Assembly (NCBI RefSeq): GCF_028826155.1
Contig: NZ_JAQGPN010000001.1
Coordinates: 372,001-436,000 of the forward strand
Length of the DNA: 64,000 nt
Source: Mesorhizobium shangrilense
GTDB lineage: Bacteria > Pseudomonadota > Alphaproteobacteria > Rhizobiales > Rhizobiaceae
Reading direction: 5' to 3'
Positions 4,805-56,937 of this stretch are shown in pieces (the first letter of the stretch is position 1; every line of letters starts with the position of its first letter). A program made the position numbers and the translations under genes. The notes under the pieces are model-generated. The model had not been told where the DNA came from. It ran no database searches and saw only the letters and a program-made list of their open reading frames with translations.

Positions 4805-5362
4805 TTGCGGTCCCATGCGATGGCGCGGATAAACGACGCACTCTACCGAATTCTGGAAATGCTCCTCGTCGGCCTGCTGGCCGGCATGGTTGCGCTCGTG
4901 TTCGCCAACGCGGTGGCTCGATACGCATTCGACTACAGCATCCACATTGCCGACGAATTGCCCCGCTTCCTGTTCGTCTGGCTGACCTTCATCGGCGCGG
5001 CCATCGCCCATCGCCATTCGCTGCACCTGGGCATGAAGTTCGTCATCACGTCCATGCCAAGGTCCAGCTGGCGCTATCTCATGGCGGCGTCCGAGGCGCT
5101 CGTCCTAGCCTGCGCGCTGCTCCTGATGTGGGGCAGCCTAGGCACATGGCGCATCAACGCAACAGTGGTTTCGCCGATCCTCGGGGTCCCTCTCATCTAC
5201 GTTCAGGGCGTCGCGCTGCTTTCCGCCGTGCTGATGGCGACGACCTCCCTTGACCGGCTGGCACGTGCGCTGACCGGGCGGGTATCGGCAGACGAGCTCG
5301 CCGCGTTCTCGGAAACCGAGGACGACAAGGTGATCGCCGAGACGAGAGGGAGGCTCGATTGA
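4805..5362 (+). CDS. dctQ: TRAP transporter small permease (DctQ-like)
   Basis: A 185-residue protein with four hydrophobic segments (about residues 15-37, 52-72, 90-113 and 128-150), the layout of TRAP DctQ subunits, including the conserved E-L-P-R-F-L-F-V-W-L motif around residues 50-60. It pairs with the large permease to drive Na+-coupled uptake of an acid delivered by DctP. The frame opens with TTG at 4805; ATG at 4820 is an alternative start. The strong AGGAGG at 4771-4777 is too far for either, so the start is not settled. Its stop overlaps the dctM start by four bases. Confidence 0.85.
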   Translation: MRSHAMARINDALYRILEMLLVGLLAGMVALVFANAVARYAFDYSIHIADELPRFLFVWLTFIGAAIAHRHSLHLGMKFVITSMPRSSWRYLMAASEALVLACALLLMWGSLGTWRINATVVSPILGVPLIYVQGVALLSAVLMATTSLDRLARALTGRVSADELAAFSETEDDKVIAETRGRLD

Positions 5363-6645
5363 CGATTGCCGTCTTTCTGGTGGCGCTGTGCGCGGCGCTT
5401 GCCATCGGCGTGCCGGTGGCGTTCGCGCTGATCGTCTGCAGCGTCGCGCTGATGCTGCACATGAACCTGTTCAGCGCCGAGATCATCGCGCAGAACATGG
5501 TCACCGGAGCGGACAATTTTCAGCTTCTGGCGATCCCGTTCTTCCTGCTGGCGGGCGAACTCATGAACGCCGGCGGCCTGTCGAAGCGCATCGTGCATTT
5601 CGCGATGACCTTCGTGGGCCACTATCACGGCGGATTGGGCTACGTCGTCATCTTCGCCGCGATCATTCTCGCCGCGCTTTCCGGTTCGGCGGCAGCCGAC
5701 ACCGCCGCCCTCGCCGCGTTCCTCCTCCCGATGATGCGCTCGTCCGGATACGATGCGGGGCAGTCCGCCGGACTGATCGCGGCTGGCGGCATCGTCGCGC
5801 CCGTCATCCCGCCGTCCGTCGGCTTCATCATCTTCGGCGTCGCCGCCAACGTCTCGATCACCCAGCTGTTCCTGGGCGGCATCGTACCGGGGCTGATGAT
5901 GGCGGCGTCGCTGATCGTCGCGTGGGCCTTCGTCGTCCGCAACAACCACAACATAAAGGTCCTGCCCAAGGCGAGCTGGCGCGAGCGCGGCAAGGCGACC
6001 GTGGACGGCGCGTTCGCCCTGGTGATGCCGGCGATCGTGCTGGGCGGCATCCGCTTCGGCATCGTCACGCCGACCGAGGCCGCGGTGGTCGCCGCGGTCT
6101 ATGCGCTCGTCGTCGGCCTGCTGGTCTACAGGGAGCTCTCCTTCAGCCAGCTCTACGGCTTGTTCCTGGCTGCCGGGAAGATGTCGGCGATCGTGATGTT
6201 CCTCATCGCCGCGGCGGGCGTCTCCGCGTGGCTGATTGCGCAGGCCAATATCCCGGCGCAGTTCGGCGCGCTCCTGGAACCGTTCAAGGACAATCCTACC
6301 CTCTTCCTCATCGTCCTGATGGCGCTGGTGTTCGCGGTAGGGACTGCGCTCGACTTCGGTCCGACGGTGCTGATCCTCACGCCGATCCTGATGCCCCTCG
6401 TCCGCGAGGTGGGCATCAACCCCGTCTATTTCGGCGTCCTCTTCATCATGGTCAACGCCATCGGACTGATCACGCCGCCGGTCGGCATCGTGCTCAACGT
6501 GGTGTGCGGCGTCGGCAAGGTTTCCATGGACAAGGTGCTCAAGGGCATCTGGCCATTCCTTCTCGCACAGAGCCTCGTCGTCGTCCTCTTGATCCTCTTC
6601 CCCAGCCTCGTCATCGAGCCGCTTCAATGGCTGAGGGGCAGGTAG
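5359..6645 (+). CDS. dctM: TRAP transporter large permease (DctM-like)
   Basis: A 428-residue, very hydrophobic protein of the DctM family (normal length about 425), the ion-coupled translocation subunit in the inner membrane. The motifs N-F-Q-L-L-A-I-P-F-F-L-L-A-G near residue 53, A-G-G-I-V-A-P-V-I-P-P-S near 143 and G-L-I-T-P-P-V-G near 370 are characteristic. It starts with TTG inside the TTGA overlap with dctQ, implying translational coupling, and is followed after 35 bp by dctP. Confidence 0.9.
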   Translation: MTIAVFLVALCAALAIGVPVAFALIVCSVALMLHMNLFSAEIIAQNMVTGADNFQLLAIPFFLLAGELMNAGGLSKRIVHFAMTFVGHYHGGLGYVVIFAAIILAALSGSAAADTAALAAFLLPMMRSSGYDAGQSAGLIAAGGIVAPVIPPSVGFIIFGVAANVSITQLFLGGIVPGLMMAASLIVAWAFVVRNNHNIKVLPKASWRERGKATVDGAFALVMPAIVLGGIRFGIVTPTEAAVVAAVYALVVGLLVYRELSFSQLYGLFLAAGKMSAIVMFLIAAAGVSAWLIAQANIPAQFGALLEPFKDNPTLFLIVLMALVFAVGTALDFGPTVLILTPILMPLVREVGINPVYFGVLFIMVNAIGLITPPVGIVLNVVCGVGKVSMDKVLKGIWPFLLAQSLVVVLLILFPSLVIEPLQWLRGR

Positions 6646-11764: not shown

Positions 11765-12715
11765 ATGTCGAGGGTCGCTCGGGCGCTGTTGGAACGACTG
11801 GTGGGCATGTTGATCGTGCTCGCCCTCGTGGTGACGGTCGTCTTCATCATCGTGCGGGTGACCCCCGGCGATCCGGCCGCCGTGATGCTCGGCTCGGACG
11901 CCACGCCGGAAGACATCGCTGATCTGCGCACCAGGCTGGGCCTCGATGCGCCGCTGCTCGTCCAGTACGGCCAGTTCGTGCTGGGCATCCTCAAGGGCGA
12001 CCTCGGCCAGTCGATCTTCCTCGGCCAGCCGGTCACCCAGGCGCTGGCGAGCCGCGCCGAGCCGACCTTCTTCCTCACTTTGTTCTCGATCCTCATTGCG
12101 GTGACCATCGCGCTGCCGGTCGGCATCCTGTCGGCGGTGCGGCGCGGCACCCTGTTCGACCAGATCGTCGTCACCCTGACCATGGTGGCGGCCAGCATCC
12201 CGAGTTTTTGGCTGGGGCTGATCCTGATCCAGGTCTTCGCCGTCGGCCAGGGCTGGTTCCCGGCCTCCGGCTATGGCGGGCCCGACACCGGCTTCCTCGA
12301 GCGGCTGCACCACCTGGTGCTGCCGGCGATCGCGCTCGGCGTCGTCAACTCGGCGCTGATCACCCGCTTCACCCGCGCCGCCATGCTCGACGTGCTCAGC
12401 GACGACTATGTGCGCACGGCGCGCGCCAAGGGCGCCGGCGAGCTGCGGGTCATCCTAAAACATGCGCTGAAGAACGCGCTGGTGCCGATCATCACCGTGA
12501 TCGGCCTGTCGATCGCCATGCTGGTCGCCGGCGCGGTGGTCACCGAGACGGTGTTCGGGCTGCCCGGCATCGGCAACCTGGTGGTGTCGGCGGTGCTGCG
12601 GCGCGACTATCCCGTCATCCAGGGGGCGCTGCTGGTCGTCGCCGCCATCTACGTGCTGATCAATTTCGGCGTCGACATGCTCTATATCCTCGTCGATCCG
12701 CGGGTGCGGCTGTGA
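11765..12715 (+). CDS. Peptide ABC transporter permease (DppB-like)
   Basis: A 316-residue inner-membrane permease with about six membrane segments. It has the N-terminal V-R-V-T-P-G-D-P-A motif typical of DppB/OppB/GsiC and the EAA loop around R-T-A-R-A-K-G-A-G-E (about residues 218-227), which contacts the ATPase. The stop overlaps the next gene in GTGA. Confidence 0.9.
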   Translation: MSRVARALLERLVGMLIVLALVVTVVFIIVRVTPGDPAAVMLGSDATPEDIADLRTRLGLDAPLLVQYGQFVLGILKGDLGQSIFLGQPVTQALASRAEPTFFLTLFSILIAVTIALPVGILSAVRRGTLFDQIVVTLTMVAASIPSFWLGLILIQVFAVGQGWFPASGYGGPDTGFLERLHHLVLPAIALGVVNSALITRFTRAAMLDVLSDDYVRTARAKGAGELRVILKHALKNALVPIITVIGLSIAMLVAGAVVTETVFGLPGIGNLVVSAVLRRDYPVIQGALLVVAAIYVLINFGVDMLYILVDPRVRL

Positions 12716-13572
12716 CGCTCGGCTCCCTCACCTTGCCGCTCGCGTCGGGCCTGCGCCAGCTGTTCCGGAACCGCGCCATCGCCTGCGGCGCCATCATCCT
12801 GCTGATCGTGGTGCTCGCCGCCCTCCTGGCGCCGTGGATCGCGCCCTACGCGCCCAACAAGCTGTCGATCGTCAACAAGCTCAAGGCGCCGTCGCTGACC
12901 CATTTCTTCGGCACCGACGAGTTCGGCCGCGACATCTTCTCGCGCGCCATCTATGCCGGCCGCATCTCGCTGCTGGTCAGCCTCGGCGTCGTCTGCATCT
13001 CGACCCTGCTCGGCGTCTTCCTCGGCGTCGCCGCCGGCTTCTTCCGCAAGCTCGACGCGCCGATCTCGCGGCTGCTCGACGCCATGATGTCGTTCCCCGA
13101 CATCCTGCTCGCCATCGCCCTGGTGGCCGCGCTCGGGCCGTCGCTGACGACGGTGATCCTGGCGCTCGGCATCACCTATGCGCCGCGCCTCGCCCGCATC
13201 GTGCGCGGCTCGACGCTGGTGCTGCGCGAACTGCCCTATATCGAGGCGGCGGTGGCGCTCGGGCTGCCCACCTGGCAGGTGCTGCTGCGCCACGTGCTGC
13301 TCAACCTCGCCTCGCCGATCCTCGTCCAGGCGACCTTCGTCTTCGCCTCGGCGATGCTGGCGGAGGCGAGCCTGTCGTTCCTCGGCGTCGGCGTCTCCAC
13401 CGACATGCCGACCTGGGGCACGATGCTGGCCTCGGGCCGCGAGTTCATGAACAACGCGCCCTGGCTGATGGTGTTTCCGGGGCTGGCCATCGTCTTCTCG
13501 GTGCTGTCGCTGCAGCTCCTGGGCGACGGCCTGCGCGACCTCGTCGACCCGCGCCTGTCGAAAGAGCGCTGA
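12712..13572 (+). CDS. Peptide ABC transporter permease (DppC-like)
   Basis: A 286-residue second permease of the system. It has the DppC/GsiD hallmarks H-F-F-G-T-D-E-F-G-R-D-I-F-S-R (residues about 63-77) and an EAA-like loop E-A-A-V-A-L-G near residue 178. The start is GTG at 12712, overlapping the dppB-like stop by 4 bp, which indicates translational coupling. The frame extends upstream in-phase, but that part is a shadow of the dppB-like gene. Confidence 0.9.
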   Translation: MTLGSLTLPLASGLRQLFRNRAIACGAIILLIVVLAALLAPWIAPYAPNKLSIVNKLKAPSLTHFFGTDEFGRDIFSRAIYAGRISLLVSLGVVCISTLLGVFLGVAAGFFRKLDAPISRLLDAMMSFPDILLAIALVAALGPSLTTVILALGITYAPRLARIVRGSTLVLRELPYIEAAVALGLPTWQVLLRHVLLNLASPILVQATFVFASAMLAEASLSFLGVGVSTDMPTWGTMLASGREFMNNAPWLMVFPGLAIVFSVLSLQLLGDGLRDLVDPRLSKER

Positions 13573-13576
13573 CAAG

Positions 13577-15388
<1,812 letters not shown>

Positions 15389-27489: not shown

Positions 27490-28119
27490 ATGATCACCAT
27501 CCGCATGACCGGCAACGGCATTCGCCGCCTAGACGAGGCTGTCCGTGTCCTCGGTGAGGGAAAGGCTCGAAAAGCATTCAGCCGGGCAATCAACCGCGTC
27601 GGTAAAACGGCAGGTGTAGCTGCGGGCCGCGCACTGTCCGATCAGACGGGGCTTTCGAAGGCGACGGGCAAGCGCGCCCTTACCCGCAAGGTGGACCGCT
27701 CGACGCCGGCAACGCTGAGCTACACCATTCACGGCCAGGGCGGCGACATCGCCCTGAAGTATTTCAAGGCCCGAGAGACAAGGCCAGGCGTCAGCGCGGC
27801 ACCGTGGAACCAGCGCCGGGTCTATGCCTCGAGCTTCCTGAAGGCGGGTTGGTGGCCGAGCCGCGTAGCCAAGCCGAACTGGAACGGCATGGTGTTCCGA
27901 CGCGCCAGCAGCGACGGCTACTCGTACAATGTGGCTAAGGGGATCGCTGGACGGAAGCGCAGGGGCACCAGCTTCGAGGTCGTCGACTCCGGTCTGTTCA
28001 TCCCGATCGAGATGGTGAAGGGGCAGACGGCAGCAGCCTGGCAGCGCGAAGGCGCCAACCGACTGCAGCCCCGCATCGAACATGAGATCAGGGCGATTAC
28101 GAAGGGCGTGGTGTCTTAA
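27490..28119 (+). CDS. Phage minor tail protein Z-like (GPZ)
   Basis: A 209-residue protein. The N-terminal A-F-S-R-A-I-N-R-V-G-K-T-A-G-V-A-A-G-R-A followed by T-G-L-S-K-A-T-G-K-R-A-L fits the prophage minor tail Z family (lambda gpZ-like tail completion). ATG 27490 has GGGGGAAGGA upstream. It is separated from the other tail genes by the head module, and lies convergent with the WYL-like gene, an unusual position. Confidence 0.7.
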   Translation: MITIRMTGNGIRRLDEAVRVLGEGKARKAFSRAINRVGKTAGVAAGRALSDQTGLSKATGKRALTRKVDRSTPATLSYTIHGQGGDIALKYFKARETRPGVSAAPWNQRRVYASSFLKAGWWPSRVAKPNWNGMVFRRASSDGYSYNVAKGIAGRKRRGTSFEVVDSGLFIPIEMVKGQTAAAWQREGANRLQPRIEHEIRAITKGVVS

Positions 28120-28697
28120 GGCTCGACGCCCGCGTCTTTGAGAAAGGCCGTGACTGGAACAGTCGGATCAGCATAAGTCCCGCCGTAGCCCCATGGGCGT
28201 ACACGCGGGCGGATATCCGTTGGAACCATTGTACCCTCAGACGTGAGCGCCACCTCAAATGTGGTGTGGTCGTAGGAGAGCACGTGCGACGGGGTCTTCC
28301 GTGGCTTGCCGTTCTTGAAGTGACCACGGAGACAAAGCTGCCAACCACAATCATGGGCGTGGAGGTCAACGATCCAGCCCTTTTGCCGAAGAGCCTCTTC
28401 GTATTTCGCGTGGACGTCGCGAACATCCCGGAAAGGTAGGGGTGCTGGTTTGGCCTGCCACTCTCGAGCTTCCGCGATGCGTTCACCGGAGATGATCTCG
28501 ATCTTCTCGAGCATGAACGGCTTCACCGCGTTCGAGGTGTAGCACCGCGCCCGGATCTTGCCACCAGAAAGGACCGCGATCGGAGCGATCCGGCGGCGTG
28601 CGCCTGGATTTGACCCGCCATGGTAGACGATATCGAACCACTCACCGTTTGTGATCGCCGCCTCCATAAGGCGACGTACTTCAGCCACATCTCGCAT
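28116..28697 (-). CDS. WYL-like domain protein, leftward gene before the head module
   Basis: A 193-residue protein. Residues about 10-70 (I-T-N-G-E-W-F-D-I-V-Y-H-G-G, R-R-R-I-A-P-I-A-V-L, I-R-A-R-C-Y-T, K-P-F-M-L-E-K-I-E-I-I) follow the WYL beta-barrel pattern. WYL domains sense ligands or nucleic acid and are frequent in defence-associated regulators. No HTH is evident. A C-terminal about 110-residue segment has H-A-H-D-C-G-W-Q-L-C-L. ATG 28697 has GGGAGGG upstream. It ends overlapping the convergent Z gene by 4 bp and is divergent from terS across 181 bp. Confidence 0.6.
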   Translation of the reverse strand: MRDVAEVRRLMEAAITNGEWFDIVYHGGSNPGARRRIAPIAVLSGGKIRARCYTSNAVKPFMLEKIEIISGERIAEAREWQAKPAPLPFRDVRDVHAKYEEALRQKGWIVDLHAHDCGWQLCLRGHFKNGKPRKTPSHVLSYDHTTFEVALTSEGTMVPTDIRPRVRPWGYGGTYADPTVPVTAFLKDAGVEP

Positions 28698-28825
28698 GGC
28701 CTGCCCTCCCGTTCCCCGAGGCCCAATGAAGCGCAGCATGGCGGATGAGTCCAGCGATCAGGGGGTACGGTTGGGTCCTTCCGGCCGAAAATGCCGTTGC
28801 GGGGGAGACGGCCCGGGATTTCAAC

Positions 28826-41053: not shown

Positions 41054-42823
41054 GTGGCCGACGACCAGACCTATTGGACCGATGCGCAAATCGCCCTAGT
41101 CGAGCAGGCGCGCGACGCCGCGCAGCTTGCCGCGCAACGTGTGCAGACCGCCGAGACGCGCCTCGGCAATGTCGAGGAGCGTGTGCAGCTCGTCGACGAG
41201 CAGATTGCGCAGCGCCAACAAGAAATCGAAGATGTCATCGGCGCCAACGTGCCGGACCATGAGTGGGACGGCACGCGGGTTCGCATCAAGAACCCCGATG
41301 GTGGCTGGGGCTCGTGGGTCGACCTGAAGGGCGCGGCCGGCGACAACGGCTGGGCTCCTGTTCCGGCGGCCGAGGTAGACGGCGAGCGGCGCGTTCTGCG
41401 CGTGGTCGACTGGCTCGGCGGAACGGGCGAGAAGCCGGCTGTAGGCCTGTACGTCGGCGCTGTGGGGCTGGTTGCGGCTATCGCGGACGCGGTGGATGTG
41501 AGGGGGGCGGCAGGGTTGTCGCTGGAGATCTCCGGCGGCAGCGTCACGACGCTTGCCCCGGGCGAGCCGGCCACGGCGACGATCAACGAAACATCGCCAG
41601 GCGTATATGAACTGGAGTTGGGCATTCCGGCCGGAGCAGATGGCGGCAGCTTCGACATTCAGTCGGTGGAGGCCTCCACGTTAGCGCCGGGAAGCCCAGC
41701 GACAGCGTCTCTGACGGAACTATCGCCCGGCGTCCACAAGCTCAATCTCGGCATCCCATCAGGGGCAAACGGCGTCAGCGTCACCGGCGCGACCATCAAC
41801 GGATCGGGCGAACTCGTACTGACGCTCAGCGACGCCAGCACGATCAACGCGGGCGCAGCGTCACAGTCCTCCGATATGTCGCCGGACATCATCCGTCTCG
41901 CGATGCAGGTGGCGGACCTGAAGAACACCACCGCCGGCTTGGCGAACGGCGTCTCTGACGTGTTCGATGACGCGACAGGCGTAGATGCAGTCGCGTCGAC
42001 GAACGAGATTGCCGGTACCGGCTACTACACGAACCAGACGGACGCGACAGAAGCCTCCCAGTCGCTGCCGGCGATGACCGCCGCATCCGCTCCGGCAGGG
42101 CATGTCGCTTTGGCCAGTGCGGAGTTGGGCGGGGGCGAAACGTGGCGGGCTTTCAACAAGACATCTGGCGACAGATGGGTAGCCAATTTCGTCAACCCGT
42201 CTTGGGTGCAGCGAAAGACACCAACGGCCGTTCGGTGCCGCGAGTATGCAATTCAGGCGGCCGCGTCTGAACAAAACCGCGCACCGAACACATTCACCCT
42301 GCAGGGCTCGAACAACGGCTCGTCGTGGACGACGCTCGACACAAGGTCCGGCATCACATGGTCGTCGGGCGAGCGCAAGGTGTTCACGATCCCCGCCGGT
42401 AATCGAGCCGCGTTCACGTATCATCGCCTCAACGTGACGGCCATTAACGGCGACACCTTGATTGGTGTCGCCGAACTGGAGCTTCTCCAGTACGCAGCGC
42501 CCCCAGTTATGGACCTCCGCTCGGTCGCCTTCACCGCGCTTTCCGCCCCATCGAAGGCCTCGGTGACTGTCGCGGCGAAAGCAATCGCCGGCACCATCAC
42601 CCCGAACACGCACCTGACGGCCTATGCATCTCGCGACGGCGGCACCACGTGGACGGCCGGCACTCTGGTGGCCAAGGAAACCTTGGGCGACGGGACCACG
42701 ATCTTCGAAACCGGCGAGTTCGACATCAGCGCGCAGCCGACAAGCACGGCGATGAAATGGCGCGTCGTCACTGGCACGGCATTCGAGGTGCAGGTCCATG
42801 CAGCTTCGCTGCTCTGGAGGTAG
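41054..42823 (+). CDS. Tail fibre protein with C-terminal discoidin-like carbohydrate-binding region
   Basis: A 589-residue fibre. A coiled-coil start (residues about 12-62) and G-x-W-G-S-W-V-D-L-K-G-A-A-G-D spacer lead to two similar repeats: L-A-P-G-E-P-A-T-A-T-I-N-E-T-S-P-G-V-Y with L-E-L-G-I-P-A-G-A-D-G, and L-A-P-G-S-P-A-T-A-S-L-T-E-L-S-P-G with L-N-L-G-I-P-S-G-A-N-G. Residues about 370-480 (E-T-W-R-A-F-N, P-N-T-F-T-L-Q-G-S-N-N-G-S-S-W-T-T-L, Y-H-R-L-N-V) look like an F5/8 type C fold. GTG start. It is the best candidate for host-surface glycan recognition. Confidence 0.75.
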   Translation: MADDQTYWTDAQIALVEQARDAAQLAAQRVQTAETRLGNVEERVQLVDEQIAQRQQEIEDVIGANVPDHEWDGTRVRIKNPDGGWGSWVDLKGAAGDNGWAPVPAAEVDGERRVLRVVDWLGGTGEKPAVGLYVGAVGLVAAIADAVDVRGAAGLSLEISGGSVTTLAPGEPATATINETSPGVYELELGIPAGADGGSFDIQSVEASTLAPGSPATASLTELSPGVHKLNLGIPSGANGVSVTGATINGSGELVLTLSDASTINAGAASQSSDMSPDIIRLAMQVADLKNTTAGLANGVSDVFDDATGVDAVASTNEIAGTGYYTNQTDATEASQSLPAMTAASAPAGHVALASAELGGGETWRAFNKTSGDRWVANFVNPSWVQRKTPTAVRCREYAIQAAASEQNRAPNTFTLQGSNNGSSWTTLDTRSGITWSSGERKVFTIPAGNRAAFTYHRLNVTAINGDTLIGVAELELLQYAAPPVMDLRSVAFTALSAPSKASVTVAAKAIAGTITPNTHLTAYASRDGGTTWTAGTLVAKETLGDGTTIFETGEFDISAQPTSTAMKWRVVTGTAFEVQVHAASLLWR

Positions 42824-42826
42824 AAC

Positions 42827-43267
42827 ATGGTCCGACTGATAGGGGCTGCGCGGCGCGCGGACGATGTGCTGACGTTCGAGGAGCGCAAGGATGCCAAAGC
42901 ATCTGCCATCAACGCCCGCCGCGACGCACTCTTGACCGGCGGCTACACGGTCGAGGCCGGCGTCATGGCTGGCAAAGTGCTGCAGACGCGAGACGTTGAC
43001 GACCGCAACAACTGGCTCGTCAGCCAGACCACCTACACGATAGCAGTCGGAGCCGGACACGGCGCGGTCGAGGACGCGCATTTCCGCACAGAGGACAATG
43101 TGAGCTTCACGCTGTCCTATGCGGACGGACAGGCCGTCCTGCTCGCCATGGCGGCGTGGGGTGCAGCCGTCATGCGCAATAGCTGGACCCTGAAAGACGC
43201 CGTGACCGCCGCGGCCGACGACGCCGCACTCGACGCCATCGACATCGAAATGGGCTGGCCGACGTAA
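42827..43267 (+). CDS. DUF4376-like tail fibre accessory protein
   Basis: A 146-residue protein with K-A-S-A-I-N-A-R-R-D-A-L-L-T-G-G-Y-T-V and V-S-F-T-L-S-Y-A-D-G-Q-A-V-L-L, the DUF4376 pattern found at or near fibre proteins, sometimes as a chaperone domain. It is in the place of P2 gene G. GGAGG upstream of the ATG. Confidence 0.7.
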   Translation: MVRLIGAARRADDVLTFEERKDAKASAINARRDALLTGGYTVEAGVMAGKVLQTRDVDDRNNWLVSQTTYTIAVGAGHGAVEDAHFRTEDNVSFTLSYADGQAVLLAMAAWGAAVMRNSWTLKDAVTAAADDAALDAIDIEMGWPT

Positions 43268-43292: not shown

Positions 43293-43553
43293 ATGGAGCA
43301 CCGCAGGATGATCACTCCACAGAGCCTAGTCCTTGCGCATGACGCCATGTGCGCCATGACCGACATGGGCGAAGGGCAATCCGATATCCCAACTATCGAC
43401 GCCGTGTTGCAGATCGTAACAGTCGGTGCGGGTCTTGTGCTGTCAGAAGGCGACCAAATTCGGCTAATTCATGATGCAGAGCAGCTGCAGCGCGCACAGA
43501 AGCTTCGAGCCCTGGAACATCTACGTGCGCGTCCTTCTCGCGAGGTCGCTTGA
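43293..43553 (+). CDS. Hypothetical protein, convergent overlap with HEPN-like gene
   Basis: An 86-residue frame (alternative ATG 43308 after GCAGGATG) reading M-I-T-P-Q-S-L-V-L-A-H-D-A-M-C-A-M, then a hydrophobic I-V-T-V-G-A-G-L-V-L-S. The last 160 bases overlap the converging leftward gene, so the C-terminal part may be extended by chance. Unknown function. Confidence 0.4.
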   Translation: MEHRRMITPQSLVLAHDAMCAMTDMGEGQSDIPTIDAVLQIVTVGAGLVLSEGDQIRLIHDAEQLQRAQKLRALEHLRARPSREVA

Positions 43554-43956
43554 GTCGTTGCGGCGTCTTAGCCGCCCGAAGCCCGGTGTCAGAGTTCTCG
43601 GTGACGCCTTCCGGGCCGATAGTTACGTGTCGTTGGCGCCAGAGCGCAAAGTGAGCTGCTCGGTTGCGATACTCTGAACCGTCGCCGATCTGCTTGCAAA
43701 GCTTCAACCAGCGGCTTTTGTCCGTGGGGCCGCTCAATGCTGCTTCGACTATCTCTTCTGTGAGTTTGAGTTTTGAACGGAACGCGTGGTCTCGATAGAA
43801 AATAATGGCTGCGAAGTCATCGCGAGTTGCTAGCGCCGCCGAGAAAATGGCGAAGAGCTGCATCTCAAGCTGCGCCCATTGATTGATGCATCGACCGACC
43901 GCCAGCAGATGCGCGTCGACTTGCTTCTTGGTTTCGCCTTGCTCGCCTTCGCTCAT
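43393..43956 (-). CDS. HEPN-motif helical protein, leftward moron inside the tail operon
   Basis: A 187-residue, mostly helical protein of no family I can name. The first long helix (L-L-A-V-G-R-C-I-N-Q-W-A-Q-L-E-M-Q-L-F-A) and the segment E-Y-R-N-R-A-A-H-F (R97-N98...H102) fit the HEPN RNase motif R-[polar]-x3-H at the start of the last core helix. HEPN proteins with this motif are usually RNases in toxins, Abi and CRISPR effectors. It is transcribed against the late operon with its own GGGGGG ribosome site. This is the classic moron layout, so superinfection exclusion or abortive infection is inferred. ATG 43956 is chosen; the frame opens at 43983. Confidence 0.6.
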   Translation of the reverse strand: MSEGEQGETKKQVDAHLLAVGRCINQWAQLEMQLFAIFSAALATRDDFAAIIFYRDHAFRSKLKLTEEIVEAALSGPTDKSRWLKLCKQIGDGSEYRNRAAHFALWRQRHVTIGPEGVTENSDTGLRAAKTPQRLKRPREKDAHVDVPGLEASVRAAAALHHELAEFGRLLTAQDPHRLLRSATRRR

Positions 43957-44189
43957 TTGCCCCCCCAGGACGGTGTGAGCCAATCACGTTGATCGTGCGG
44001 TGTCGAGAAGGGACCGCTTAGTCACCGACTTGAATTGGACCGTGGTGGCCGGCCGTCGGCGACTGTTTCGCTAACCGAACTCGCCATTGGCGGGGAGTTC
44101 TCTTCGACCAATCGACCGCAGCCCACGAAGGCCCGCGTGACTGACACGCGGCCGATCTCTCTTGCACACCCGTCAACCAGGAGACCGTC

Positions 44190-45431
44190 ATGACGGCACC
44201 GACATTTGGAATGACCTTTACCCGGCCGCAAGACGAGCCGGTTCCTGTATTGGGCGCGGATTTTTCCAAATCGCTGCTCATCGAAACATCGGCCGATGCC
44301 GACGCCGCAGCCTTCCCGATCGGGGAGCCGGTGCGCTTCTCGTCCAGCGACACGACGAAGACGTCGAAGCTCGGCACCGGGCCGTTGGCCGACGCCGTGC
44401 GGGCCGTCAACTCGCAGCTCTCCGGCCTCAATGCCGGCGCGGACGTCACGGTCCTTCGCGTCGCCGAAAGCGCTGAGGCGGACCCGCAGGACAAGCTCGA
44501 GGAGACTTCAGCCAACATCGTCGCGGCGCTGGCGACGGTCAGCTCCATCCCGAGCCACGTCAACGCGACGCCGCGCCTGATCTGGGCGGGGCGCACCAGC
44601 TGGCGGCCGGACATGGCTACGGCCAATCCGATCGTCGCGGCCTTGCCTGCGGCGTGCGAAAAGCTGCTCGCCGTCGCGCCGGTCGATGTCGACGACACGT
44701 CGGCCGCCAATGCCATCGACGCTCGCGAGACGATGAATTCGCAGCGCCTCATCCCGATCGGCGTGGCGGCCCGGGTCTTTGAGGGGGCCAGCCTGGTCAC
44801 GCGGCCGATGGGACCGCGCGTCGTCGGGCTGTTCGTGCGGAACGATAACGACCATGGTGGCAAGCCCTTCGACCCGATCGCCAACCGGCCGATCCAGGGG
44901 CTTGCCGGCCTGTCGCGCAAGCTGCCGTTCTCCTTGCTCGACGGCTCGACCGAAGGGCAACAGATGCTCGAGGCCGGGGTCTCCATCGTGGCCGAAGGCG
45001 AGGTCGGCGTCGACGGAGCGGTAGCGGATGGCGGCTTCGTGTTCATCGGCACCGACAACACCGAGACCGGCGAGCTCTGGCAGCAATTCCACCAGGTACG
45101 CGGCGCCGACTACATCACCGTCAAGCTGATGCAGATCACCCGGCAGTTCCTCGGCAGGAAGACCACGGCCGATCACGCAGAGGCCTGGCTGAATTCGCTG
45201 CGCTTCATGCTGCGCGACCACAATGCGGACGACGACATCCTTGGTTACGACGTGAAGTTCCTGGCCAGCAAGAACAGCCCCGAAGAGATCCGCCTCGGCC
45301 ACCTCACTGTCAATCTGGGCATCGAGCCGGCGCCGGCCTTTAAGGTCGCAAACCACGAGATCCGCCGCTATCGCCCGGCGGTCGAAGGCCTCGTCGCCGA
45401 AATCATCGCCCGCATGAATGCGGTTTCCTGA
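44190..45431 (+). CDS. Phage tail sheath protein (gpFI)
   Basis: A 413-residue contractile sheath protein of the P2 FI family: A-D-F-S-K-S-L-L-I-E-T-S-A-D-A-D, I-G-E-P-V-R-F-S-S-S-D, A-A-N-A-I-D-A-R-E-T-M-N-S-Q-R and a C-terminal G-Y-D-V-K-F-L-A-S-K-N-S-P-E-E-I-R-L-G-H-L segment. It shows that the phage is a myovirus. CAGGAGA precedes the ATG. The 233-bp gap upstream presumably holds promoters for this gene and the HEPN-like gene, but none is clear. Confidence 0.93.
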   Translation: MTAPTFGMTFTRPQDEPVPVLGADFSKSLLIETSADADAAAFPIGEPVRFSSSDTTKTSKLGTGPLADAVRAVNSQLSGLNAGADVTVLRVAESAEADPQDKLEETSANIVAALATVSSIPSHVNATPRLIWAGRTSWRPDMATANPIVAALPAACEKLLAVAPVDVDDTSAANAIDARETMNSQRLIPIGVAARVFEGASLVTRPMGPRVVGLFVRNDNDHGGKPFDPIANRPIQGLAGLSRKLPFSLLDGSTEGQQMLEAGVSIVAEGEVGVDGAVADGGFVFIGTDNTETGELWQQFHQVRGADYITVKLMQITRQFLGRKTTADHAEAWLNSLRFMLRDHNADDDILGYDVKFLASKNSPEEIRLGHLTVNLGIEPAPAFKVANHEIRRYRPAVEGLVAEIIARMNAVS

Positions 45432-53388: not shown

Positions 53389-56300
53389 TCACGCAATGAC
53401 TTGGTTAGCCCAGAAGATGTCACCCGAGTCGACAAGCGTGACGGTGTAGTCGTTCGCCGCGTTGTAGACGCCGTCCTGGTTGGCATCAACGTAGAAGGTA
53501 TTGTCGCCGGCCACTGCACCTGGACCACCCGCCACGAAGGACAGGATGTCGGAAACGCCGAAGGCGGCACCTTCGGCAAGAGCCGCTGCGGCATAGTTGA
53601 TCACCGCGCCAGCAATGCCGAAACCGGAGAAGTCGAGCACGTCCTCAACCGCGTCGCCACCAGCAACGCTCTCAAAGTTGAGAACGGTGTCTTGGCTGCC
53701 GGCCGAGCTTGCCTGCGCGAACACTGTGTCGACCGCGCCATCGCCACGAGCCAGAGCAGGATCCCAACCCAGATCGATGGTGTCGTTCCCCGCACCACCA
53801 GTGATCTGGTCGCCACCGAAGCCGCCGGTAATGTCCAAGCTCAGGAAATGGTTGGTAACCTGAGAGGCATCAAGGACGAGCACCGTGTGGGCACCGTTGA
53901 TCAGCGGATTGTCATACGCTGCAATGGTGAGCGTCTCGACACCATTCGTCGCAGACGCGGCCTGCGTATCGTTGACCAGACGATCGACAGTGGCGTTGTC
54001 GAGTTCGAGAACGGCGGTCTGCGTCGCAGCCTGATCGTTGGTGAATTCGATCGTGCCGACGTTGGACACGCCAACCAGATCACCGATGGTGACAACCGCC
54101 GAGTTGCGGACCTCAAGAACGTCGGTGTTAGCCAAGTTGCTGGCGGTGTTGCCGGCACCCAGAACCGCACCACCGTCGATAACGGCGAGGCCGTTGACGT
54201 TGGCGTCGGCCATGATGAAGCGATCGGCAGTGCGCCAGACCCCATCTTCACCATTGTAGGTGAAGTTGGACTGCGCATTTAGGCTGCGCGCATCAACCGT
54301 CACGCCGTACTGAACAGCAGCAGACCCATCGTCCGCGACACCCACACCATTGAGCACATCGTTGTCATTGACGATGTGGATCACTCGGCCGCCCGTGACA
54401 GCTTCGCCGTTATTGGCGATCAGGTCGTTGGTCAGCGTCAGGTTGTAGCTGTTCTTGCCATAGGCATCGTTGGCGCCGGCCTTGGAACCCTGATTGGTGC
54501 CGCCGCCGCCCTGGCCGACTAGGTGGATCGTCTCGATGTTGGAGACGTTGGTCCACTCCGACGCGCTAACATTGATCAGCTTGCCGTGGCCGTCGAGGTA
54601 GAGCGTGTCGTCACCTTCGCCGCCGTTCACCTTGTCGCTGATCGACAGACCGGCGGTGGTGTTGTTGAGGGCGTCGAAGATGATGTGGTCGTCGCCCGAG
54701 CCGCCCAGGATGGTCTGCCCGCCGTTGGCGACGGCCGCATTGTTCGACACGCGCACGATCAGGTCGCCGGTGTAGGCCGAGGCGTCGACCGTCTCGCCGC
54801 TGAAGCGCTCGGCCGGACTTGCGCCCGGATCCGAGATCGACTTGCCATCGACGGCGAGGCCGGACTGGTCGAGCTGCAGGGCGTTTCCGGTCGAGTCCAG
54901 GTTCAGGAAGTTGCCGGCCTGGTTCTCGCCGATCACCGTGATCGTGCCCTTGACGTCGGCGATCGAGGCGATCCTGACGCTGTTGGACTCCGAGTCGGTG
55001 TCGGTGAGGGTGATGTTCTCGACCTTGGCCGCGTTCAGCGTGAAGTTGAAGCGCGGATCGATGTTGATGCCACGGACTTCGCTGTCAGCCTGGTCGACGA
55101 TGGTCACGCCGACGAGGTCGGACGCGGTGTCGGTCGCCAGATTGGCGATGATCGTCGTGTCGCCCACGCCGTTGCTGTCGGTCGTGCTGTGCTGGATGAC
55201 CAGATCAGCCGCAACCTCGGCGGACAGCTTGTTCAGGGTGAAGTCGACCTGACCATTCTGCACGAACAAGCCATTGTTCGACTCGTTGCGCATGATCACG
55301 GACTCGAGGTCGGTGAACAGCGAGGTGTCGACAGTCACGTTGCCGGCCCCGAAGTCGTTTCCGCGGATATCGAGGTTCTCGACCGCCGTGACCGAACCCT
55401 TGGTGACGCTGGCGAACACCTGGACGGTGTCGTTGCCGTCGCCGCCGTCGATCTTGTCGTTGGCGCTGTCCATGCCGTTCAGCAGACGGATGGTGTCGTC
55501 ATGCTTGGTGCCGGTGAACGAGAAGTCGACCTCGGTGCCCGAAGTGCCGTCCTGGTCGGCAATGACTTCCTCGCCGAGATTGATCTCGATGGCGGCGTCA
55601 AGGCCGGAGGCGTCGATGGTCGTCAGCGAGCCGGCGGCGTTGTCGATCGCGGCGTCATACGTGAACGCTTCGACCTGGCCGCTGCCGCGAATGATGTTGT
55701 TGCTCTCGCCCAGCGACAGCTCGGCATCGCCGGTGATGTTCAGGGTCCGGACGTCCTGCATCGACATCTCGTCGACCTGGTTGCCGTCGCCGGTCGAGGC
55801 CAGGTTGACGGTCTCGATGCCCTGCGAGCCGTCGTTGCTCTCCAGGCGGATGTCATCGAGGGTCACGCTGTCGAGAGTGAGGCTGACCTCATCGGCATCG
55901 CCGCTGACGGCCTTGTTCACGAAGTAGAAGTGAGCGTGGCTGTTCTCGTCGTTGGAGTTCGACACGCTGATGGCGAGGTCTGCGGCCGACTGGATGTTGT
56001 AGGCCTCGAACAGGTTGCCGTCGACGCCGTCGACGTTGAGGTTCTTCAGGCCGGTGGTGTCCTGCAGATCCAGGTAGCCATCAAAATCGAGACGCACGTT
56101 GACGTTGATCTCGTTGATGTTGTTGAGCGTCGCGTTGATGTCGTTGTCGCCGGTGTCGGCGTCGTTGACGAAGGTGAAGTTGAGCACGTTGTGGGCACCC
56201 GTGCCAGTCAGCACGTCGTCGTCGTTCAGCGTGTTCATCTGGTCGGTGCCGCCCGGCGTGAAGGCGCGCGGCGCGTTGAACACCTCACCCGACAGCGTGT

Positions 56301-56937
56301 CGCCGTTGACGGTCAGCGTCTTGCCCGGAGCCGGGTCATCGTTGTCGTACTTGGTGCCGTCAGCGGTCTCGATCGGGATGAAGACGTCGCTGGTCTCCGG
56401 CAGGTTGGCCGAGCCGTCATTGATGGCGGCCTTCAGGTCGTTGATGGCATCGCCGACGCCCTGGTCGTTGGCGACCAGCATCTTGAGCAGCGAGGCCAGC
56501 CCCACGACGGCAGCGCCGTCTTCGCCGGCGACGCCGCGCTCGGCAGCCACGCCCGTGAAGAACGCCTGGGCTTCCGCACGGGTGAAGAAGGCAAGGCCTT
56601 CCGCCGTCTGGTGCTCGGCCGGCACATAGGCCTCGTAGATGGCGACGAGCTGGTCCTGCAGGGTGGCGGCGCCGGCGGTGATGGCGTCGAACTTCGCCTC
56701 GGCGGCCGGGTTGCCCTGGAACAGCGCGTTGACGCTGTTGATGAAGATGTTTTCGGCGTTGAACACGATGTTCGGGTTGTTGGACCCGTAATTCGTCTCA
56801 AGCGCGTTGTTGATCAGGAACATGAAGCCGTCGACGCTGGGGACGCCGCCCAGCAAGACTTCGTAAGCGGCTGCAATGCCGGCAAAGGCATCGGGATTGC
56901 CATCAATGAGGGCATCCAATTCGGCCAGAGTTGCCAT
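53389..56937 (-). CDS. Large S-layer/RTX-like calcium-binding surface protein, prophage cargo
   Basis: A 1182-residue acidic, Asn/Asp/Thr/Gly-rich protein with almost no Cys and few Lys. It lacks a Sec signal. The N-terminal about 190 residues are helical with N-P-D-A-F-A-G-I-A-A-A-Y-E-V-L-L-G-G, resembling the anchoring regions of Caulobacter-type S-layer proteins. The body is beta-roll or beta-helix-like, with RTX nonapeptide units G-G-D-G-N-D (about residue 499), G-G-S-G-D-D (746), G-G-E-G-D-D (774) and G-G-A-G-N-D (1048). The hydrophobic end (D-S-G-D-I-F-W-A-N-Q-V-I-A) suits a type I secretion signal. No secretion genes are in the window. GGAG precedes the ATG. Adhesin or S-layer role inferred. 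Confidence 0.8.
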   Translation of the reverse strand: MATLAELDALIDGNPDAFAGIAAAYEVLLGGVPSVDGFMFLINNALETNYGSNNPNIVFNAENIFINSVNALFQGNPAAEAKFDAITAGAATLQDQLVAIYEAYVPAEHQTAEGLAFFTRAEAQAFFTGVAAERGVAGEDGAAVVGLASLLKMLVANDQGVGDAINDLKAAINDGSANLPETSDVFIPIETADGTKYDNDDPAPGKTLTVNGDTLSGEVFNAPRAFTPGGTDQMNTLNDDDVLTGTGAHNVLNFTFVNDADTGDNDINATLNNINEINVNVRLDFDGYLDLQDTTGLKNLNVDGVDGNLFEAYNIQSAADLAISVSNSNDENSHAHFYFVNKAVSGDADEVSLTLDSVTLDDIRLESNDGSQGIETVNLASTGDGNQVDEMSMQDVRTLNITGDAELSLGESNNIIRGSGQVEAFTYDAAIDNAAGSLTTIDASGLDAAIEINLGEEVIADQDGTSGTEVDFSFTGTKHDDTIRLLNGMDSANDKIDGGDGNDTVQVFASVTKGSVTAVENLDIRGNDFGAGNVTVDTSLFTDLESVIMRNESNNGLFVQNGQVDFTLNKLSAEVAADLVIQHSTTDSNGVGDTTIIANLATDTASDLVGVTIVDQADSEVRGINIDPRFNFTLNAAKVENITLTDTDSESNSVRIASIADVKGTITVIGENQAGNFLNLDSTGNALQLDQSGLAVDGKSISDPGASPAERFSGETVDASAYTGDLIVRVSNNAAVANGGQTILGGSGDDHIIFDALNNTTAGLSISDKVNGGEGDDTLYLDGHGKLINVSASEWTNVSNIETIHLVGQGGGGTNQGSKAGANDAYGKNSYNLTLTNDLIANNGEAVTGGRVIHIVNDNDVLNGVGVADDGSAAVQYGVTVDARSLNAQSNFTYNGEDGVWRTADRFIMADANVNGLAVIDGGAVLGAGNTASNLANTDVLEVRNSAVVTIGDLVGVSNVGTIEFTNDQAATQTAVLELDNATVDRLVNDTQAASATNGVETLTIAAYDNPLINGAHTVLVLDASQVTNHFLSLDITGGFGGDQITGGAGNDTIDLGWDPALARGDGAVDTVFAQASSAGSQDTVLNFESVAGGDAVEDVLDFSGFGIAGAVINYAAAALAEGAAFGVSDILSFVAGGPGAVAGDNTFYVDANQDGVYNAANDYTVTLVDSGDIFWANQVIA

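Follow-up and report, generated by a model that had tools for sequence, protein, structure and literature searches.

An antisense HEPN-like gene between tail fibre and sheath genes in a Mesorhizobium shangrilense phage region, and its relatives on IS1595-type transposons

The 64,000-nucleotide stretch analyzed here (Mesorhizobium shangrilense contig NZ_JAQGPN010000001.1, positions 372,001 to 436,000; hereafter, the window) contains phage genes with a P2-like tail region, and between the tail fibre and tail sheath genes lies a leftward gene (43393..43956, minus strand) for a HEPN-like protein of 187 amino acids (hereafter, P0001). The gene encodes a protein under selection and is held at one place in two distant phages. 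It belongs to a family without a name that has the HEPN RNA-cutting motif as its hallmark and very probably a HEPN-type fold. The protein is probably a ribonuclease (RNase), and an anti-phage role is plausible, at slightly less than even chances. The explanation that we prefer, to which we give about an even chance, is that the gene is cargo of a temperate phage whose tail region is P2-like and encodes a stand-alone HEPN-type RNase of this family that excludes phages.

The coordinates and strand of the open reading frame (ORF) agree with those in a preliminary description of this DNA, and its start, the ATG at 43956, is backed by an aligned ATG in a second phage (locus L002). The L002 protein (P0003; 65% identical to P0001) is the sole relative from viral contigs, three scans of which returned the same single contig each time. 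Its gene is also antisense to late genes and lies between a DUF4376 gene (expectation value [E] 5.1e-14), from which it is separated by 21 bases, and a sheath gene (E 2.5e-45); the sheath proteins of the two phages match at only 28%. Over 179 codons, the P0001 and P0003 genes differ at 58, 38, and 108 sites in codon positions 1, 2, and 3, respectively, with a nonsynonymous divergence (dN) of 0.33 and a saturated synonymous divergence (dS) of 3.5. These differences support a coding gene and are those of a protein under selection.

Residues R97, N98, and H102, which the preliminary description had singled out, are present in P0001, and the codons of the R97-N98-x3-H102 motif occupy 43651..43668 on the minus strand (R97: 43666-43668; H102: 43651-43653). 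In an alignment of 58 sequences including P0001, R97 is found in all 58, H102 in 56 (the exceptions are L005 and L031), and N98 in 52; position 31 is E in 52 sequences and D in four, and W27 is present in 50. R97 and H102 were thus retained, not lost, in homologues, with the qualification that homologues were retrieved with motif-containing queries, which somewhat flatters motif conservation. The alignment, which also underlies the tree, derives from 64 scanned loci, of which L014 had no hit; six near-duplicates (L021, L022, L029, L164, L170, and L172) and two truncated sequences (L040 and L181) were left out, and P0001, P0003, and a second gene of G848 were added. A smaller alignment of 29 rows (A4) left out L031, L023, L040, L041, and near-duplicates. 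The family shows the R-x4-6-H pattern, usually with N, D, or H after R, by which HEPN proteins are defined in the account of PMC3710099, where the motif is placed at the end of helix 3 with a conserved acidic residue upstream. In P0001, no K or R stands four residues after the acidic residue at position 31, in contrast to the typical HEPN form (Ex3[KR]).

The AlphaFold2 model of P0001 is a helical bundle in which the motif stands where HEPN proteins have it, and the unrelated fold named as a refutation in the preliminary description did not appear: R97 lies in the last turn of helix 77-101, the third long helix (not counting a short helix at 46-53), and H102 comes next. No significant sequence or fold similarity to a named HEPN family emerged for P0001; other HEPN families were absent from the fold tables, which does not exclude them. 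In profile alignments, the motif falls in register with DUF4145 (P 0.12) and out of register with HepT-like proteins (P 0.16); even these two families aligned with each other at only P 0.019. The HEPN-type RNase candidate of the preliminary description is partly supported, by the position of the motif in a predicted helical bundle and the retention of R97 and H102. P0001 had no match in Pfam, NCBIfam, or PADLOC, and a single one in PHROGs (unknown function, E 0.089). Pfam scans of 15 members gave single scattered weak hits (e.g., HEPN_Cthe2314 in one member, E 0.068), NCBIfam scans of 29 members gave no consistent family (the top single match, E 0.00048, is to an unrelated kinase), and a sequence profile search of the PDB returned nothing relevant. 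The PF18730 profile matched nothing, controls included, and is uninformative. Remote HEPN similarity was reported for six of 21 newly selected defence systems in PMC9519451, making HEPN defence a common kind; nonetheless, in the literature searched, with most subscription journals outside its scope, neither this family nor any HEPN gene located between fibre and sheath genes was described.

Gene position argues for cargo. The tail region has baseplate-type, fibre, DUF4376, sheath, and tape-measure genes in the order of phage P2, as tabulated in PMC3091744 and, from gene G onward, in the P2 record. The left neighbour of the HEPN-like gene is a DUF4376 tail-fibre-type gene in a position like that of P2 G (42827..43267, plus strand; PF14301, E 1.1e-14; PHROG tail fibre, 1.6e-7) and the right neighbour is a tail sheath gene in the position of P2 FI (44190..45431, plus strand; PHROG_23 tail sheath, E 1.4e-36). 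With a simple gene caller, the HEPN-like gene is the sole leftward call between them, and it does stand alone against the late operon as first described. Its third-position guanine-cytosine content (0.57, compared to 0.79-0.91 in six phage genes measured) fits imported cargo. We collected 45 loci with relatives of the sheath gene (19 from viral contigs and 26 from genomes), 40 of which, 35 of them distinct, include 1 kb or more of DNA before the sheath gene. The family profile, run against ORFs of at least 50 amino acids in those loci, found a relative in 0 of the 40, showing that the window gene is accessory; a conserved structural gene, which the preliminary description had named as a possible refutation, was rejected on this count.

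The likeness to prophage exclusion genes that had been drawn from the antisense placement is borne out by P2, whose annotated exclusion gene fun(Z) lies antisense in the gap that has G (tail-fibre assembly) on one side and FI (sheath) on the other. In the P2 record this gene is non-essential and blocks T5, and the transcription start of the F operon is marked between fun(Z) and FI. According to PMC8594841, which gives the mechanism against T5 as unknown, several phage groups are inhibited by Fun/Z, and PMC3091744 notes that P2-like phages very commonly hold genes foreign to P2 in the Z-region. In a few of the prophages with related sheath loci, the same gap holds other cargo, namely an antisense heparinase II/III-like gene (L139:4086-5687), an antisense acyltransferase gene (L140:4661-5947), a rightward methyltransferase gene (L142:5071-5841), and a rightward gene whose match to a glycosyltransferase is below threshold (L145:4953-5762). 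L076 has a different antisense ORF of 132 amino acids there (5344-5739, minus strand) with no family match. Large leftward genes also lie upstream of the fibre genes in a Chelativorans-genome prophage (L066:711-3951 and L141:2905-3951, minus strand); the one scanned (348 amino acids) had no Pfam match.

Relatives of P0001 lie mostly in bacterial genomes. Whole-genome searches recovered divergent relatives, about 15-40% identical; searches of genome contigs with P0001 found none, and neither did tblastn searches of phage and plasmid collections with P0001, of phages with P0003, L017, and L030, or of plasmids with L003. Relatives were found in 14 of 394 genomes of the window's family (P0001 at E 0.001; one false, L014), nine of 397 of its order (P0003 at E 0.001), 17 of 385 of its class (profile A2 at E 0.0001), and 23 of 398 of its phylum (profile A4 at E 0.0001; 21 in the window's class), the samples overlapping and each count including the window's own genome. 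One subgroup (L006-L013, L015, and L164-L169) from the window's family and other families has short branches, motifs such as RNKYNH, RNKYSH, and RNEFNH, and no IS1595 transposase in the flanks scanned; it looks chromosomally inherited. At L058 (8956-13808), a relative sits directly behind an ORF that we take to be nuclease-like; a gene resembling phage terminases (40% identity) lies nearby, so that this relative may be a third phage-borne copy; the 474-amino-acid ORF between those genes ends in another R-x4-H stretch, RVATAH.

Part of the family consists of passengers of transposons of the IS1595 type, a family of insertion sequences (ISs). In ORFs around cellular relatives, PF12762/PF12760 transposase domains were found in nine of ten scanned. 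Across the 63 loci with a family hit (including near-duplicates and repeat hits within a genome), 15 have a same-strand IS1595 transposase upstream, among them L028 and L029, whose encoded proteins are identical, and L024 and L163 from one genus; in eight, the ten-base IS end occurs without mismatch in the 350 bp that follow the gene, and in three more it occurs there with one mismatch. By comparison, 47 control loci (DUF4145 and HepT-like genes from other genomes at the order level, not genome-matched) had no IS1595 transposase, and the IS end, at up to one mismatch, occurred twice in their 148 kb, both strands counted. PF12762 was also counted in 25 of the 38 genomes with a hit (24 selected ones and the window's own); it had 43 matches in 17 genomes and, in ten, lay on the strand of the family gene no more than about 1.3 kb upstream of it (G280, G777, G848, G908, G912, G995, G1062, G1073, G1082, and G1145). 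This choice leaned to IS-bearing cases and the omitted genomes mostly hold the subgroup without IS neighbours, so that ten of 25 overstates the association and 15 of 63 is fairer.

Six units of 2.1-2.9 kb, bounded by inverted repeats of 20-34 bases, each carry a transposase and a family gene: L047:7625-10532, with an 8-bp repeat immediately at both outer edges; the abutting L048:9566-11859 and 11860-14218; L049:9387-11456; L051:8141-10468; and L059:7912-10521. IS copies with passenger genes are on record (PMC3129680, which refers to Siguier et al. 2009 for IS1595), and in the relevant passages of the two papers that contain both IS1595 and HEPN the terms are not linked. In the tree, the phage genes and three IS-borne genes belong to one clade of eight members (support 0.94; inner branching unresolved). 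Direct IS delivery of the window gene was not supported, as its genome has no match to the PF12762 transposase and the window has no IS end.

On the explanation that we prefer, P0001 would be a stand-alone RNase of the HEPN superfamily type, from a family that spreads in part on mobile elements, and its gene would be cargo (a 'moron') in a temperate phage whose tail is P2-like. In the lysogen, with the late operon silent, the gene would be read from its own promoter, expected, together with the late sheath-operon promoter, in the gap between its start and the sheath gene (43957..44189); a sigma-70 consensus scan found no match in this gap, such a scan being uninformative for rhizobia. By analogy with HEPN enzymes, two subunits would pair, and the RNA-cutting site would consist of R97, N98, and H102, located where helix 3 ends, together with E31 of helix 1. 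The enzyme would remain inactive until it was triggered by an infecting phage or some other stress, whereupon it would cut cellular RNA and stop growth, and the competing phage would fail. Upon prophage induction, strong rightward late transcription running against the gene would switch it off and spare the phage, as may be supposed from Tha of phage 80alpha. More tentatively, the family as a whole may be single-gene RNase cargo for immunity common to IS1595-type transposons, which carry it as passenger gene, and temperate phages, which would have acquired it in the antisense fibre-sheath slot; there, late transcription would silence it in the lytic phase.

Taken alone, the motif is weak evidence, since RN-x3-H occurs in 1.3% of shuffled P0001 sequences and the looser R[NDH]-x3-5-H in 23%; it has meaning because it is conserved across the family. 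The main rival, a possible one in our judgment, holds that the HEPN-type RNase serves persistence of the element that carries it (transposon or prophage) or stress dormancy of the host. Such a role would suit the relatives that are IS1595-type passengers with terminal inverted repeats, for which an anti-phage function is less obvious, and stress dormancy was proposed for HEPN proteins of integron cassettes in PMC3710099. Against it, two phages hold the gene where P2 keeps its exclusion gene, and no antitoxin-like partner adjoins it. An ORF of 86 amino acids (43293-43553, plus strand) that overlaps the 3' end of the HEPN-like gene on the opposite strand may be spurious; it was rejected as a partner because it has no homologue in the phage collection or in the relatives' loci examined, and because the 21-base spacing in L002 is all that separates that gene from DUF4376.

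An improbable alternative is that the protein has the HEPN fold but no RNase activity, and regulates genes of the phage or the host by binding RNA or a nucleotide: according to PMC3710099, the motif has been lost in several HEPN families, and two of the 58 sequences here lack H, yet no other residue counted in the family is as well kept as R and H, as would be expected of a catalytic site. Less probable still is a helical structural or assembly protein with a coincidental motif, an idea suggested by the location among tail genes and the frequency of the looser pattern in shuffles, and countered by the 0 of 40 sheath loci, the orientation against the late operon, and genome relatives outside tail settings wherever context was examined. 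Lysogenic conversion of the cell surface, as the acyltransferase, heparinase-like, and methyltransferase genes in the same gap of related prophages could suggest, is similarly hard to credit given that P0001 has no Pfam match to such enzymes and its conserved residues are those of HEPN RNases.

Other features of the phage region include a tail fibre-type gene upstream of the DUF4376 gene (41054..42823, plus strand; PHROG tail protein, E 1.5e-25), a leftward gene left of the terminase gene (28116-28739, minus strand; PHROG matches of unknown function only, no Pfam match), and a leftward ORF of 1182 amino acids right of the endolysin gene (53389-56937, minus strand; no Pfam or PHROG match).

The family has a likely RNase site, and mobile elements of two kinds carry it. 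If the window gene serves defence, the slot between fibre and sheath genes, where P2 has fun(Z), would be a place to mine exclusion genes in related myophages, and IS1595 passengers would form a pool of single-gene immunity; were immunity the shared function of these cargo genes, insertion sequences would be a vehicle for spreading single-gene phage defence. The antisense placement offers a testable model for how a prophage could escape harm from the weapon that it carries.

Compared to known systems, P0001 shares with DUF4145 (PF13643), HepT-like (PF01934), and integron-cassette HEPN proteins the motif at the end of helix 3, a polar residue after R, and a conserved acidic residue upstream, though in P0001 not in the typical Ex3[KR] form; integron-cassette proteins are, by the account in PMC3710099, also mobile cargo. 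Unlike these families, P0001 has RN-x3-H with a beta-hairpin right after it, and unlike HEPN/MNT toxin-antitoxin pairs, the gene has no adjacent minimal nucleotidyltransferase gene, its neighbours being tail genes, in L002 as well. Some relatives are cargo of IS1595-family ISs, sitting downstream of a transposase and before a terminal repeat, whereas the window gene is in a phage, with no PF12762 match in the genome and no IS end in the window. Tha, as presented in PMC11087260, is a prophage HEPN RNase of Staphylococcus phage 80alpha with the motif RNSIMH; tail proteins activate it and antisense transcription keeps it in balance. It is similar in being prophage-borne, in the RN-x3-H motif, and in the antisense control proposed for P0001. 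In a profile alignment that is not significant (P 0.11), RNRAAHF of P0001 stands opposite RNSIMHG of Tha (BLASTP E 0.30); Tha differs in its 301 amino acids with an extra N-terminal half and in its location, which is away from the tail region and flanked by xis and the repressor gene. P2 Fun(Z) has 528 amino acids, no R[NDH]-x3-5-H motif, and no similarity to P0001 by BLASTP or family profile, and homology was rejected; what the P0001 gene shares with fun(Z) is the antisense slot between a fibre or fibre-assembly gene and the sheath gene, the Z-region in which P2-like phages often carry acquired genes (PMC3091744).
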